A DNA stretch of 64,000 nt from Pseudoduganella violacea (GTDB taxonomy: Bacteria > Pseudomonadota > Gammaproteobacteria > Burkholderiales > Burkholderiaceae_D), in the NCBI RefSeq assembly GCF_014191875.1, contig NZ_JACHXD010000010.1, forward strand, positions 186,001-250,000. The letters are read 5' to 3'. How positions within the stretch are numbered: position 1 is the first letter of the stretch; each line of letters starts with the position of its first letter. The notes under the pieces were generated by a model. The model ran no database searches. It had not been told where the DNA came from and worked only from the letters and a program-made list of their open reading frames with translations. Below, piece by piece: positions 22,617 to 28,635 of the stretch. The position numbers and the translations under genes were made by a program.

Positions 22617-23543
22617 ATGCAAAATAAACAGAAGATGAGCGAATGGATCGCGGGCTTTCTGGCGGCCGATCCGCCGCGCTCGAAATCCCTGCTGACGACC
22701 ATTTTCGGCGACGCCATCGTGCCGCACGGCGGCACGGCGTGGATGGGCAGCCTGATCGAGCTGCTGGCGCCCTTCGGCGTCAACGACCGGCTGCTGCGCA
22801 CCTCGGTGTTCCGGCTGGCGCAGGAAGGCTGGCTGGGCGCCCAGCGCGACGGCCGGCGCAGCGCGTATGCGATCACGCCCGAGGCCATGCAGCGCTTCAG
22901 CCAGGCTTACCGGCGCGTGTACGCGCCGCTGCACAATGACTGGGATGGCCAGTGGACGCTGGTGCTGGGCAGCAGCGGCCTGGATGCGGCCGAACGCGGC
23001 GCGCTGCGCAAGGAGCTGCTGTGGGAGGGCTATTGCCTGATCGCGCCCGGCATCGCGGGGCATCCGGCCGGCGACGGCGAGGCGCTGCAGGCGCTGCTCG
23101 AACGCACGGGCTTGCAGGGCAAGGTGTTTGTCTGCAAGGCGGCTGAGGCGCCGGGCCTGAAGGCGCGGCCGCTGGGCGAGCTGGTGGCCGAGGGCTGGGA
23201 TTTATCGGGCGTGGTCGATGGCTACCGCCAGTTCCTGGTGCACTTCGCGCCGCTGCTGGATCTGATCGAGGATGGCTTGAAGATGACAGCGGAACAAGCC
23301 TTCGTCGCGCGCACCCTGCTGATCCACGCCTACCGGCGCGTGCAGCTGCACGATCCGCATCTGCCGGTGGCGCTGCTGCCGGAGCCGTGGCCGGGCGCGG
23401 CGGCCTACGAGCTGGCGCGCGCGCTGTACCGCGCGCTGTACCGCGAGGCCGAGGAACACCTGATGCGCGCCCTGCACCGCGAGGACGCCTCCGCGCCGGA
23501 GGCCGACGCCGCGTTCTACCAGCGCTTTGGCGGACTGGATTAG
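22617..23543 (+). CDS. paaX: PaaX, phenylacetyl-CoA-responsive repressor
   Basis: PaaX represses the phenylacetate genes and is released by phenylacetyl-CoA. The product (308 residues from the chosen start) has the N-terminal winged helix with LLTTIFGDAIVPHGGTAWMG and the recognition stretch RLLRTSVFRLAQEGWLGAQR, then the PaaX central and C-terminal domains with YRQFLVHFAPLLD and HAYRRVQLHDPHLP. ATG codons at 22608, 22617 and 22635 are all possible; 22617 is chosen because upstream residues are not conserved-looking. The position opposite paaA is typical. It ends 6 bases from a convergent gene. Confidence 0.95.
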   Translation: MQNKQKMSEWIAGFLAADPPRSKSLLTTIFGDAIVPHGGTAWMGSLIELLAPFGVNDRLLRTSVFRLAQEGWLGAQRDGRRSAYAITPEAMQRFSQAYRRVYAPLHNDWDGQWTLVLGSSGLDAAERGALRKELLWEGYCLIAPGIAGHPAGDGEALQALLERTGLQGKVFVCKAAEAPGLKARPLGELVAEGWDLSGVVDGYRQFLVHFAPLLDLIEDGLKMTAEQAFVARTLLIHAYRRVQLHDPHLPVALLPEPWPGAAAYELARALYRALYREAEEHLMRALHREDASAPEADAAFYQRFGGLD

Positions 23544-23549
23544 TTTTTC

Positions 23550-24014
23550 TCAGTCGGTGCAGCGGCGCGCGACTGATCGGCGGTCGGTGTAAGGCAGCCA
23601 GCGCTCGACCTTGGCCTGCTGGCGCCACAGGGTGGCGCGCACCCAGAGGCCGCGCGCGCCGCGGCGTATCCAGATGTCGCGCCAGGCGTTGCGCACGCTG
23701 CCGGTCACCTGCAAGGCCCAGGCGCGGGGGGAAACCGCTTCGCCGGCATACATCAGGCGGTCGCCGCGCACTTCGGCGTAATACTCGATGCCGTGGTGGC
23801 GCAAGCGCAGCTCAGTGCCATCGGGCAGATACACGTCTTTCCACTGGTAGCCGCGCGGACTCTGGCGGCCGCCGCTGCGCGCGGCCAGCCAGTCGCGCAG
23901 CGCTTCGGACACCACTTCATCGAGCCGGTTACCGTCGCCGGTCTTGTGCAGTTGCACGGCCAGCTCGAAGTAGAGCTTGGGGTTGACCGATACGACCATG
24001 GCCTCGTTTTGCAT
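23550..24014 (-). CDS. Putative DNA-binding protein with RHH-like N-terminus and RAMA/DUF4357-like C-terminus
   Basis: I do not recognise this 154-residue protein as a named family member. Its N-terminal 45 residues (VVSVNPKLYFELAVQLHKTG and LDEVVSEALRDWLAA) read like a ribbon-helix-helix DNA-binding module. The C-terminal half (LPDGTELRLRHHGIEYYAEV, then AWALQVTGSVRNAWRDIWIR) resembles the RAMA/DUF4357 type of domain found with DNA modification enzymes. The start at 24014 is set by a GAGG ribosome site; the frame remains open upstream, but that part lacks protein-like sequence. The DNA just upstream holds repeated GCCTCG motifs that could be its own operators. Domain calls are by eye. Confidence 0.5.
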   Translation of the reverse strand: MQNEAMVVSVNPKLYFELAVQLHKTGDGNRLDEVVSEALRDWLAARSGGRQSPRGYQWKDVYLPDGTELRLRHHGIEYYAEVRGDRLMYAGEAVSPRAWALQVTGSVRNAWRDIWIRRGARGLWVRATLWRQQAKVERWLPYTDRRSVARRCTD

Positions 24015-24155
24015 TTTTTGTGCCTCGCATTGCCTCGTTTGGATAATGGTTGGACGCCCAGTCGCAGAGGGAAGTTCCGGCCATCCCACAAGAAAACGAG
24101 GCAAAAGCGCGGCACGATTAGGCAAAACGAGGCCTTGCCTCGCAGTAGCGAGGCA
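24001..24155. repeat. Cluster of seven GCCTCG/CGAGGC motifs (core TGCCTCGTTTT)
   Basis: Copies are at 24001-24006, 24022-24027, 24032-24037 and 24137-24142 (GCCTCG), and at 24097-24102, 24128-24133 and 24149-24154 (CGAGGC). Several extend to AAAACGAGGCA or its complement. They occur in both orientations with irregular spacing, span the start and upstream region of the putative RHH protein, and are dense for 155 bases. Irregular spacing and very short units exclude a CRISPR array. An operator cluster is the simplest reading. Confidence 0.65.
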
Positions 24156-24194
24156 TACACCCGATCCCCAAATTTTGCTGGGGCAAACCATGAA

Positions 24195-24605
24195 TCAATC
24201 GCAATGGAATTGCAACGAACCGTCTTGCACGACGCCCCGCCGCAAGCGCCACCTCGCAGTGCAGTGCTTTACGGTGTTGGCGTCAAAGCTGATATAGCGC
24301 TCTTCCCCCAGGTAAACGCAATCAACCCGAAAGACATAGGCTGGTGCATCGAAGCCCATGCGCCAGCTTTGATAGAAAAAACCACCCACTTCTTTTTCTT
24401 CAGTGGGCGGCATAGCCCGCGATGAGCCATTATCGGTGGGTGGATCGTTTTTCGGATAAGACAGCACGCGCACGCTGTCCAGTCTTGCGGGCGGTGATTG
24501 CGCGGTCGCCGGCAAAAAGGCCGGGCAACTGATTGCCTGGGTTTCCCCCGCGTGGGCAACCAAGGATCGCGCAAGACTGAACAACACGAACAGCCGCGCT
24601 TTCAT
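24195..24605 (-). CDS. Exported small protein, candidate immunity partner of the amidase gene
   Basis: The product (136 residues) has a signal peptide (MKARLFVLFSLARSLVAHA, cut near residue 19-20) and a Cys-containing mature part with DCVYLGEERYISFD, VKHCTARW and a final FHCD. The several cysteines suggest disulfides in the periplasm. I see a loose resemblance to the STY0301-type proteins found beside small amidases, but this is from memory and uncertain. It overlaps the upstream amidase gene by 4 bases (ATGA), so the two proteins are made together. A periplasmic partner made with a peptidoglycan amidase would fit protection of the producer cell. Confidence 0.5.
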   Translation of the reverse strand: MKARLFVLFSLARSLVAHAGETQAISCPAFLPATAQSPPARLDSVRVLSYPKNDPPTDNGSSRAMPPTEEKEVGGFFYQSWRMGFDAPAYVFRVDCVYLGEERYISFDANTVKHCTARWRLRRGVVQDGSLQFHCD

Positions 24606-24973
24606 TTCACGATCGAGTAGAGTTCGGGCCGGTTCACGCCTGCCGCTGCCGGACGACCGAAAGACAAGATGCGCTTTGCCGGCTTTTGTTTTTTCCATTG
24701 ATCGAATATCTCGATCCCGCCCGCCACACTGCGGATGAAAACCGCCGCGTGATTGCCGCTTGGCAGATTTGGATAACGGCCATTGATAAAGGTGGCAATA
24801 GCGGTGCCGCGAGCGATGGGTTTGCCGCTCGAGAGCAAATTCATAACCTTCTCTCCTTCACGCCATAAGGAAGATGGCGGCGCGCCAGTCAGCTTTTTCA
24901 CCAAGGTGACGCATTGGCCGTTTCCGATCACCTCGGTTTCATCGGTAAATTTTCCGCTTGCGATATAGGGCAT
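24602..24973 (-). CDS. BPSL0067-type small cysteine amidase, candidate peptidoglycan-targeting effector
   Basis: The 123-residue protein lacks a signal peptide. It has a papain-like arrangement: Cys21 in IGNGQCVTLVKK, His75 in SGNHAAVFI and Asp91 in IFDQW, as in NlpC/P60 and CHAP amidases. The sequence resembles proteins annotated as the BPSL0067 family; I recall these as linked to type VI secretion but cannot confirm it here. A strong AAGGAG ribosome site precedes the ATG. The downstream overlapping gene encodes an exported protein, the layout of effector-immunity pairs. No secretion genes are in the window, so export would depend on a distant apparatus. Confidence 0.6.
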   Translation of the reverse strand: MPYIASGKFTDETEVIGNGQCVTLVKKLTGAPPSSLWREGEKVMNLLSSGKPIARGTAIATFINGRYPNLPSGNHAAVFIRSVAGGIEIFDQWKKQKPAKRILSFGRPAAAGVNRPELYSIVK

Positions 24974-25091: not shown

Positions 25092-26174
25092 TCAGCGGCG
25101 GCCGATGCTGATCAGGTAATTTTGCATGGTCGCCTCGGCCACCGAGGCCCACTGGTTCTGGTCCTGGCGGAAGCGCTTCCACGGTTCGTAAATCTTTTTG
25201 AACTTGGCGTTCTTCGCCGCCTCTTCCTCCATCACGGCAGTCGAGGTCTTATAGGCCGCGTCCATGATCTCTTTCGAGAAGTTGTGCAGCTTGGCGCCGT
25301 TTTTCATCAGGCGCGCCAGGGCGGCCGGGTTCTTGGCGTCGTAGTCGGCCTGCATGCTGACGTGGCATTCGTAGCTCGCCGCTTCCAGCGCGGCCTGGTA
25401 TTCCTTGGGCAGCTTTTCCCACTCCTTGATATTCACGTAAAACGAGAGCTGCGGCCCGGCCTCCCACCAGCCCGGCGTGTAGTAGTGCGGCGCCACGCGC
25501 ACCAGACCGAGCTTTTCATCGTCGTAGGGGCCGACCCACTCGGCGGCGTCGATCGTGCCTTTTTCCAGCGCGGCGTAGACGTCGCCCGCCGGGATCTGCT
25601 GCGGCACCACGCCCATGCGCTCCATCACGCGGCCGGCGAAACCGGCCACGCGCATTTTCAAGCCCTTCATATCGGCCACGGTCTTGATCTCCTTGCGGTA
25701 CCAGCCGCCCATCTGGGTGCCGGTATTACCAGCGAGGAAATTGACGATGCCGTAGCCTTTGTAGAACTCGCGCAGCAGCTCGCGGCCGCCGCCCTGGTCC
25801 ATCCACGCCGTCTGCTGGCGCGAAGTCAGGCCGAAAGGCACGGCGCAGTCGAAGCAGAAGGTGGGGTCCTTGCCGAAATAGTAGTAGGCCGGGGTGTGGC
25901 CCATTTCCACCGTGCCGGCCTGCACCGCGTCCATCACCTGCAGGCCCGGCACGATCTCGCCGGCGGCGAACTGGCGGATCTGGAATTTGCCGCCCGTCAA
26001 CTCGGCCACGCGTTTGACGAACTGGTCGGCCGAGCCGTAAATCGTGTCCAGGGTTTTCGGGAAGCTCGAAGCCAGGCGCCAGTTGACCTGGCCACCCTGG
26101 GCCAGGGCCGGCACGGCCAGCGCGCCGGCGCCGGCGCCGATGGCGGTCTTCTTCAGGAAGGAACGGCGTTGCAT
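25092..26174 (-). CDS. TRAP transporter solute receptor (DctP/TakP type), copy 1
   Basis: This periplasmic binding protein (360 residues) delivers an organic acid to a TRAP permease. It starts MQRRSFLKKTAIGAGAG, a twin-arginine signal peptide, ending ALAQ. The mature protein has the family sequence WRLASSFPKTLDTIYG, the ligand-region TSRQQTAWMDQGGG, and AAEWVGPYDDEKLG. In TakP the Glu-Trp of the last motif helps bind the alpha-keto acid and sodium. A GGAGAC ribosome site fixes the ATG at 26174. It is closely similar to the gene at 27544-28635, and neither has permease genes beside it. The DctM at the left edge could serve both. Confidence 0.93.
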   Translation of the reverse strand: MQRRSFLKKTAIGAGAGALAVPALAQGGQVNWRLASSFPKTLDTIYGSADQFVKRVAELTGGKFQIRQFAAGEIVPGLQVMDAVQAGTVEMGHTPAYYYFGKDPTFCFDCAVPFGLTSRQQTAWMDQGGGRELLREFYKGYGIVNFLAGNTGTQMGGWYRKEIKTVADMKGLKMRVAGFAGRVMERMGVVPQQIPAGDVYAALEKGTIDAAEWVGPYDDEKLGLVRVAPHYYTPGWWEAGPQLSFYVNIKEWEKLPKEYQAALEAASYECHVSMQADYDAKNPAALARLMKNGAKLHNFSKEIMDAAYKTSTAVMEEEAAKNAKFKKIYEPWKRFRQDQNQWASVAEATMQNYLISIGRR

Positions 26175-26350
26175 AGATGTCTCCAATATATTCTTGTGTG
26201 TCATCGAATCGCGCTGCTGCCGGTTCATTGTAGCTGTTTCGGCGGAAAGATTGTCAGATGCATCAGGGGTGTGGATGCGCGCGGCGCGGCGAGGCGGTAT
26301 CATGTCGCCTTTGCGCCGCCGGCGCCTTATCCACCAGCCAGGGACACACA

Positions 26351-27475
26351 ATGTCTATCAAAATCAGCAGCCAGTTCGACGCTGGCGCCATCGACGTCGT
26401 CAGCGTGACCAGCGCCGGCGATATCGACCTGAACATCCGCAAGGATTCCCACGCCGACATCACCCAGTGGTTCTATTTCCGCGTCCAGGGCGCGCAAGCG
26501 GTGCCGCTCACCATCCGCTTCCTCAACGCCGGCCAGGCCGCCTATCCGGACGGCTGGAAGGATTACCAGGTCGTGGCCAGCTACGACCGCGACACCTGGT
26601 TCCGCGTGCCGACCAGCTATGACGGCAAGGTGATGACGGTCGACCATGCGCCCGAGTTCGACAGCGTCTACTATGCCTACTTCGAGCCCTACTCGTGGGA
26701 GCGCCACCTGTCCCTGCTCGACAGCGCCCAGCTGTCGCCGCTGGCCCAGTTGGTGGACCTGGGCAGCACGGTCGAAGGCCGCGACATGAACCTGTTGGTG
26801 GTGGGCGATCCCGAAGCCGAGAAAAAGGTGTGGGTCATCGCGCGCCAGCATCCGGGCGAAACCATGGCCGAGTGGTTCGTCGAAGGCATGCTCGAAGCCC
26901 TGCTCGACCCGGCCGACCCGTTCGCCAGCCAGTGCCTGAAGGACGCCGTGTTCTACGTGGTGCCGAATATGAACCCGGACGGCGCGGTGCGCGGCAATCT
27001 GCGCACCAACGCGGCCGGCGCCAACCTGAACCGCGAGTGGAATACGCCGAGCATGGAACGCAGCCCGGAAGTGTTCCTGGTCAAAGCGAAGATGCAGGAA
27101 ATCGGTTGCGACCTCTTCCTCGACGTGCACGGCGACGAAGGCTTGCCTTACGTCTTCGTGGCCGGCAGCGATTCGCTGGAGAATTTCACGGCCGAGCAGA
27201 AAGCCGCGCAAGACAGCTTCATCGCCGACTTCAAGCTCGCCAGCCCCGACTTCCAGGATGAGTTCGGCTATCCCGACGGCCCGTTCACGCCCGAAGTGCT
27301 GACCATGGGTTCGCCGCACATCACCCACCTGTTCGGCTGCCTGTCGCTGACGCTGGAATTGCCGTTCAAGGACAACGCCAACGACCCGGACGAAGAACGC
27401 GGCTGGAACGGCGCCCGCAGCGCCAAGCTCGGCGCCGCCGTACTGCAACCGATCCTGCGCGCGCTGCGCGCCTGA
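26351..27475 (+). CDS. M14 family zinc carboxypeptidase (cytosolic carboxypeptidase-like)
   Basis: The 374-residue protein has an N-terminal beta-sandwich (about 1-125, containing DITQWFYFRVQGA) followed by the M14 carboxypeptidase domain. This is the layout of the CCP/AGBL branch that trims acidic C-terminal or side-chain residues. Zinc ligands are His167 and Glu170 in HPGETMAEW and His260 in DVHGDEG; the catalytic Glu336 is in TLELPF. There is no signal peptide, so it acts in the cytoplasm. It lies between two paralogous TRAP receptor genes on the other strand and ends before a 49-base palindrome. Confidence 0.9.
   Translation: MSIKISSQFDAGAIDVVSVTSAGDIDLNIRKDSHADITQWFYFRVQGAQAVPLTIRFLNAGQAAYPDGWKDYQVVASYDRDTWFRVPTSYDGKVMTVDHAPEFDSVYYAYFEPYSWERHLSLLDSAQLSPLAQLVDLGSTVEGRDMNLLVVGDPEAEKKVWVIARQHPGETMAEWFVEGMLEALLDPADPFASQCLKDAVFYVVPNMNPDGAVRGNLRTNAAGANLNREWNTPSMERSPEVFLVKAKMQEIGCDLFLDVHGDEGLPYVFVAGSDSLENFTAEQKAAQDSFIADFKLASPDFQDEFGYPDGPFTPEVLTMGSPHITHLFGCLSLTLELPFKDNANDPDEERGWNGARSAKLGAAVLQPILRALRA

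Positions 27476-27543: not shown

Positions 27544-28635
<1,092 letters not shown>

Follow-up and report, generated by a model that had tools for sequence, protein, structure and literature searches.

Ribbon-helix-helix (RHH) proteins, among them NikR and SvtR, read bases with their ribbon. Published RAMA-DNA structures are presented as backbone-only and sequence-independent; in the MPND RAMA domain, Ser113, Ser115, and Trp135 are reported to contact DNA with no contacts to bases, and recognition is called possibly sequence-independent (PMC9963953). The SAND domain protein DEAF1 reads TTCG half-sites that recur 6–11 bp apart and acts as a repressor of its own promoter (PMC4274154). Within the open-licence full text no paper combining “ribbon-helix-helix” and “RAMA domain” was found, and the open-licence literature, judged by title and the start of the abstract, yielded no paper on a family joining RHH-like and RAMA-like parts. 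Such a protein is encoded in the window, the whole 64-kb stretch of DNA analysed here, with repeats upstream of its gene whose word changes between relatives together with residues of the RAMA/SAND-like domain.

The window gene, its predicted fold, and its repeat array

The gene occupies 23550..24014 on the minus strand (ATG at 24014, stop at 23550) and encodes 154 aa, comprising an RHH-like N-terminus and a RAMA/SAND-like domain. The ATG at 24014 was picked as the start because GAGG lies 8 nt upstream and MQNE is common to the close orthologues L009, L030, and L031. The AlphaFold2 model of the protein (mean pLDDT 88) places the RHH-like part at codons 1–47 (23874..24014, minus strand), with helices at residues 12–25 and 31–46, and the RAMA/SAND-like domain at codons 55–138 (23601..23852, minus strand); an AlphaFold model of L126 alone (pLDDT 41) was left out. 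The best matches in structure comparison are RAMA domains, namely MPND (Z 8.2), MPND bound to DNA (Z 8.1), and CcrM (Z 7.6), over 74–78 residues, a Z near 8 being moderate, and the next best are the SAND domains of GMEB1 (Z 6.3) and SP140 (Z 5.4). Foldseek alone places CcrM at E 0.13, and finds nothing at E≤0.001. For the N-terminal part, the structural matches to NikR (Z 4.7) and SvtR (Z 4.4) are weak, and its ParD/CopG-type profile matches are likewise weak (E 0.08 and 0.13), with two helices rightly placed and no strand assigned in the monomer model. The first-pass annotation of this DNA had read the protein as RHH-like at its start and RAMA-like at its end; the predicted fold agrees well with the RAMA-like end and weakly with the RHH-like start.

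The Pfam RAMA model (PF18755) does not reach its curated cut-off, with one of 61 family domains matched at E≤1 (best E 0.025) and no full-length protein out of 64 matched at E≤0.1. Domain-only scanning also gave weak Pfam matches to SAND in two of the 61 domains (best E 0.021) and to DUF2924 in four, along with more than 20 further single weak matches, and each curated model in Pfam, NCBIfam, and PHROGs matches at most a single member out of 64 at E≤0.1. The SAND motif KDWK occurs in none of the 195 family proteins. Aspartate decarboxylases, the main matches of the domain profile against PDB sequences (from E 0.048), were judged to be chance.

Residue 97 comes after [S/T]P at the start of helix 96–104 in the model, and Ser113-Pro-Ser115 of MPND may be the counterpart of the family's [S/T]95-Pro96-X97. 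Codon 97 (Arg; 23724..23726, minus strand), second in this helix, is the proposed main specificity residue, being the top column in our scans and singled out in a clade test, with codon 101 (Leu; 23712..23714, minus strand), one helix turn on, proposed as the second from the separation of AT and CT words in the N97 clade.

Exactly seven copies of GCCTCG/CGAGGC lie in the 154 bp from 24001 to 24154, about −140 to +14 from the ATG. The same motif occurs 70 times across the 64-kb window, no other 154-bp stretch of which reaches seven copies, with a Poisson probability of 7e-10 per stretch for seven or more. The proposal that the cluster is denser than expected by chance is borne out by this count. 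The total of 70 is lower than the mean of the window's own shuffles (86). Read in the direction of the gene, the array opens with a forward copy (24149..24154, minus strand), a reversed copy (24137..24142, plus strand), and a forward copy extended to GCCTCGTTTT (24128..24133, minus strand), followed 10 bp later by a degenerate copy, GCCTAA, recognised by eye (24118..24123, minus strand), and by a second forward copy extended to GCCTCGTTTT (24097..24102, minus strand), the last ahead of the promoter-like element GAACTT-N16-GTCCAA (24050..24077, minus strand). This element, of RpoE/ECF type by sequence match and family enrichment, is read in the gene's direction and has the array on both sides, with three reversed copies beyond it, one in the 5′ leader (24032..24037, plus strand), one containing the GAGG 8 nt ahead of the ATG, a candidate Shine-Dalgarno sequence (24022..24027, plus strand), and one, again extended, within codons 3–5 (N E A; 24001..24006, plus strand). 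A sigma-70 scan of 23400–24700 gave no promoter-like site. Both orientations are thus present, as had been noted, but they do not simply alternate irregularly: copies ahead of the promoter-like element point forward and those beyond it are reversed, with the copy at 24137..24142 the one exception. The description of many copies as extended to AAAACGAGGCA was overstated, with AAAACGAGGC found in three of the seven copies and the final A as well in only one. Exact GCCTCGTTTT occurs 15 times in the gene's own genome (reversed-pattern control 8), with three copies in the window array, one at the paralogue L002, and 11 elsewhere.

The six recognisable copies upstream of the orthologue L009 (84% identical) are all GTCTCG, compared with GCCTCG in the window. 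In the orthologue L031 the upstream array mixes GCCTCG copies like those of L030 with GTCTCG copies like those of L009, as if blocks of the array had recombined.

The window gene is solitary among chromosomal genes. A Pfam scan identifies a PaaX regulator gene adjoining it on one side and two short ORFs on the other, beyond which the neighbour scan finds a DctP protein. These ORFs (167 and 123 aa; 24195–24973, minus strand), neither of which receives a Pfam name, separate the array from the DctP-type solute-binding gene, and the 123-aa product may resemble small amidase-like effectors. The DctP-type gene of L009 ends ~240 bp ahead of the start codon of the family gene, so that the two short ORFs look like an insertion in the window or a loss in L009. 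Two adjacent and similar DctP-type solute-binding proteins (Pfam PF03480) are encoded at 25092–26351 and 27544–28635 (minus strand), near a PaaX gene.

Arrays and promoter-like elements across the family

The gene's own genome (6.25 Mb) holds eight family matches, the window gene included, and relatives occur in 64 of 74 genomes of the genus at E≤1e-10, single genomes having as many as 15; identical proteins entered the counts once. Among sampled genomes of the taxonomic family, 34 of 392 matched at E≤1e-25 and 47 of 294 at E≤1e-14. A 64-sequence profile matched four of 250 sampled genomes of the order at E≤1e-12 (the gene's own, one of the same family, and two of other families), and two of 299 sampled genomes of the phylum at E≤1e-8, one of them its own. 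Named relatives come from Massilia, Duganella, Pseudoduganella, Aurantimonas, and one Rhizobium plasmid. With the window protein as query, 72,556 plasmid records returned one match (35% identity) and 50,697 phage records none, and none of 36 candidate stretches in viral contigs was confirmed as a relative. The first set of 143 loci, less nine without a located gene (134 genes) and seven duplicates, gave 127 genes, and a new test set of 88 loci, less 17 without a located gene and three duplicates, gave 68.

The commonest 8-letter word, with one mismatch allowed, beats all 25 shuffles of its own region in 89 of the 127 upstream regions, with a mean count of 5.6 compared with 2.9 in the shuffles. 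The general word of the family is CT-NN-TTT in copies ~10 bp apart, NN varying between members, with 10 bp the commonest spacing (146 cases) and 12–13 and 20 bp less frequent. At 95 labelled loci, 293 copies are forward upstream and 230 reversed downstream of the promoter-like element against 19 in the wrong orientation, and the proportion obeying the rule (523/542) is inflated because the labels were chosen using the orientation rule. Among the 123 labelled genes, 32 have a reversed copy lying across their first codons, and 23 of these 32 carry CG. Homologues lacking the upstream motifs had been put forward as a refutation of the first-pass annotation; that check fails as stated because in many homologues the array is built from a different word. 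The main point, which the annotation missed, is that the word varies between relatives and does so together with the protein. In the N97 members L025, L085, and L116, CTAT and CTGC are mixed within one array, a pattern suggestive of two registers or two readers.

The promoter-like element takes the form GAACTT-N15/16-GTCYAA across the family and has the features of an RpoE/ECF-type promoter, namely a GAACTT −35 and a GTC..AA −10 placed 15–16 bp apart. In its strict form, GAAC[TC]-N15-17-GTC[TCA]AA, it is found in 114 of 194 family upstream regions and in one of 1545 control stretches, and RpoE promoters of like kind appear in PMC4336711. A sigma factor would presumably use this element. The gene's own genome contains five matches to the element, not above control (10), three of which lie at family genes.

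Covariation of the repeat word with residues 97 and 101

Residue 97 is the top protein column against NN in the MI scan of the 127-gene set, for which simple YCTNN counts served as labels (91/127 labelled). A stricter word count was tried and labelled few loci; later analyses use phase-weighted labels, whose thresholds were fixed from the 127-gene set, leaving 34 of 127 genes in the first set, 38 of 68 in the new set, and 72 of 195 pooled without a label. With the first-set labels (93/127), R97 is accompanied by CG (34/37), H97 by CT (11/11), and S97 by A- (10/10), N97 being mixed. With the pooled labels (123/195), the corresponding counts are 35/42, 11/11, and 14/15, and the N97 members divide by residue 101, with CT in 11 of 13 members carrying R101, AT in ten and GC in two of 17 carrying Q101, and GA in 13 of 20 carrying other residues. 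The labelled G97 members L158, L175, and L226 have the word TT (3/3), a possible extension of the code. Four distant relatives assigned to the S type by eye have CTAT/ATAG four, seven, six, and two times within 100 bp upstream of the gene (shuffle P of 0.008, 0.0005, 0.0015, and 0.14, the first and last tied with other words), and a distant A-type relative has it zero times in the same span.

The two-residue code (97, 101) was fixed before the 68 new genes were scored, 30 of which were labelled and 26 of these had a prediction. It was correct at 16 of the 26 loci, compared with a permutation mean of 6.3 and with none of 20,000 permutations as high. Correct predictions were unevenly spread over the classes, at 1/5 for R, 4/5 for S, 6/7 for N97 with Q101, 4/4 for N97 with R101, and 1/5 for N97 with other residues. 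The failures among new R members have AA (two, in the same genome), CA, and TA, and the GA predicted for N97 with H101 was wrong, with AT in all three new loci. Failure at four of five R and four of five N97-plus-other loci indicates that positions besides 97 and 101 matter, and these two residues do not account for every word.

An alternative, which we consider unlikely, is that the arrays are operators whose word is read by the RHH ribbon, with residues 97 and 101 mostly following by descent. Base reading by the ribbon is established, and columns 3, 4, and 11 of the RHH side rank high. Among pairs 40–85% identical, 28 of the 489 that share a word differ at residue 97, as do 665 of the 1327 whose words are unequal, and in this close-pair scan column 97 is first of 143, with columns 4 and 3 second and third and column 11 also high. 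Columns 3 and 4 are in part tied trivially to the word, through the 32 of 123 genes noted above in which a reversed copy reaches into the start of the coding sequence. Within the N97 clade, column 101 separates ten AT members (all Q) from ten CT members (all R), the best separation among 102 variable columns. However, AT (K or N) and CT (F) are also told apart by column 3 here, without a copy over the codons, so that the RHH part may have a share in word recognition; over the whole clade (26 members, rarer words included) column 101 is third, after columns 3 and 107.

In a clade of nine with the words AT and GA, only column 97 of 77 variable columns separates the words fully, the next reaching 0.5, and L042 and L043 have few differences in the RHH part, yet differ in word and in residue 97, which argues against the ribbon as the reader. 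A third clade, with one odd member, is fitted by several columns. Fifteen independent pairs differing in residue class were drawn from a tree built without codons 94–106 and include loci that had served to form the code; 14 agree with the code, none is swapped, and one is tied (sign P 0.00012), and 200 random pairings gave means of 10.0 for the code and 0.04 swapped. No independent pair contradicts residues 97 and 101, again in disagreement with reading by the ribbon. Sign tests within single classes have too few pairs to reach 0.05, a lack of power that favours the ribbon, with a mean of 0.0 the other way in each of four classes.

Competing explanations, a proposed mechanism, and known systems

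A further possibility is that the RAMA-like domain serves as a sensor of array methylation, the unit reporting on a methylase. We consider this very improbable, since although RAMA domains have been proposed as 6mA readers, MPND binding is reported in the same paper to be unchanged by 6mA (PMC9963953), and the words vary so widely (CTCG, CTCT, CTAT, CTGA) that no single methylase explains the arrays.

The suggestion in the first-pass annotation of a plasmid-partition site left in the chromosome, equivalent to a ParR/parC-like centromere, has become barely credible. ParR is typically an RHH protein that binds 10–11-bp direct repeats in some plasmids, and iterons flanking a promoter, a feature of ParR/parC, are present in the family. 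The window gene, however, is solitary in the chromosome with a PaaX neighbour, the repeats are inverted across the promoter, up to 15 matches occur per genome, relatives in plasmids, phages, and viruses are almost absent (one plasmid match), and no ParM or mobile-element partner is found among the ORFs scanned beside the window gene and the 14 (10 and 4 in two scans) beside seven own-genome paralogues. The neighbours vary by member, and include genes for RNA polymerase beta′, UvrD, COQ7, DapB, an aldolase, and others. Two genes away from the paralogue L004, on the opposite strand and past an ACP phosphodiesterase gene, a ParE toxin gene (Pfam PF05016; L247:5039-5347) is accompanied by a small partner ORF, so that the absence of a toxin nearby is not strictly true; we take the two as an unrelated pair. 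That the arrays are functionless tandem repeats arising by slippage and inherited by descent is scarcely plausible, for although some arrays are very regular, their helical phase, the reversal of orientation across the promoter, and the way their words correlate with protein residues all speak against it.

It is evident from comparison of the family members that the array flanks a promoter-like element, that many relatives retain this layout while the word changes, and that the changing letters track residues 97 and 101. The earlier idea of a protein acting on its own upstream region gains support from this comparison, through the arrays of relatives, the shared layout, and the joint change of word and protein. 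The unit is probably an autoregulated DNA-binding protein with its own operator array, and there are good grounds in sequence comparison, from which binding and repression are read, to expect autoregulation by a sequence reader of RAMA/SAND type. In the mechanism that we propose, the RHH part would form a dimer and the RAMA/SAND-like domains would sit one per repeat, on the same face of the DNA and about a helical turn from each other, with helix 96–104 reading the letters of CT-NN (for example, Arg for CG and Gln for A). The two filled arms would then repress, switch, or set a threshold for the gene's own RpoE/ECF-type promoter. Differing residues at 97 and 101 would give paralogues differing words, which we propose would lessen cross-talk within one genome without wholly removing it.

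Four R-type paralogues of the gene's own genome share CTCG with different neighbouring letters, and their words are therefore not fully private and their separation is partial. In a search for further targets limited to the R-type word, the tandem CTCGTTT-N3-CTCGTTT (at most one mismatch) turned up in this genome only at two family genes and, a single time, within a different ORF (C17), and at two mismatches 23 matches are not above the control of 21. The tandem CTCGTTTTAGCTCGTTC near the start of an unrelated ORF (L252:1954-1970; C17:30453-30469 in the gene's own genome) is probably a coincidence of coding.

A bolder reading, to which we assign a probability of roughly 0.57, is that a bacterial RAMA/SAND-type domain reads bases through residues 97 and 101 by a swappable code, and that the family has thereby expanded, within single genomes, into numerous switches, each controlling itself and largely separate from the rest, that share one RpoE/ECF-type promoter design. 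Cognate pairs with one fold and changing words lend themselves to the study of a protein-DNA recognition code, which would here concern RAMA, a fold called sequence-independent in the structure paper (PMC9963953). If the code holds, word specificity would be predictable and changeable from two residues, and the question would arise why single genomes keep up to 15 family genes.

The family resembles several known systems in part. As in ParR/parC of plasmid R1, it combines a small RHH-like protein with phased iterons of ~10–11 bp flanking a promoter and with cognate-pair specificity (PMC9426499); unlike ParR/parC, it has a RAMA/SAND-like domain, repeats inverted across the promoter, no ParM among the scanned neighbours, and many chromosomal paralogues. 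With RHH antitoxins and autorepressors of the ParD/CopG kind it shares an RHH-like N-terminus (E 0.08 to ParD chains) and an expected autoregulation, however no toxin lies directly beside the scanned family genes and the C-terminal domain is RAMA/SAND-like. The RAMA domains of MPND and CcrM are the closest solved folds (Z 8.2 and 7.6), but these are described as backbone binders without base contacts (PMC9963953), whereas word and residue co-vary in the family. DEAF1 may be regarded as a close functional parallel, its SAND fold ranking just after RAMA for the model of the window protein; in contrast to the family, DEAF1 is eukaryotic and has the KDWK motif and an adjacent zinc finger, in place of which the family carries its RHH-like part.
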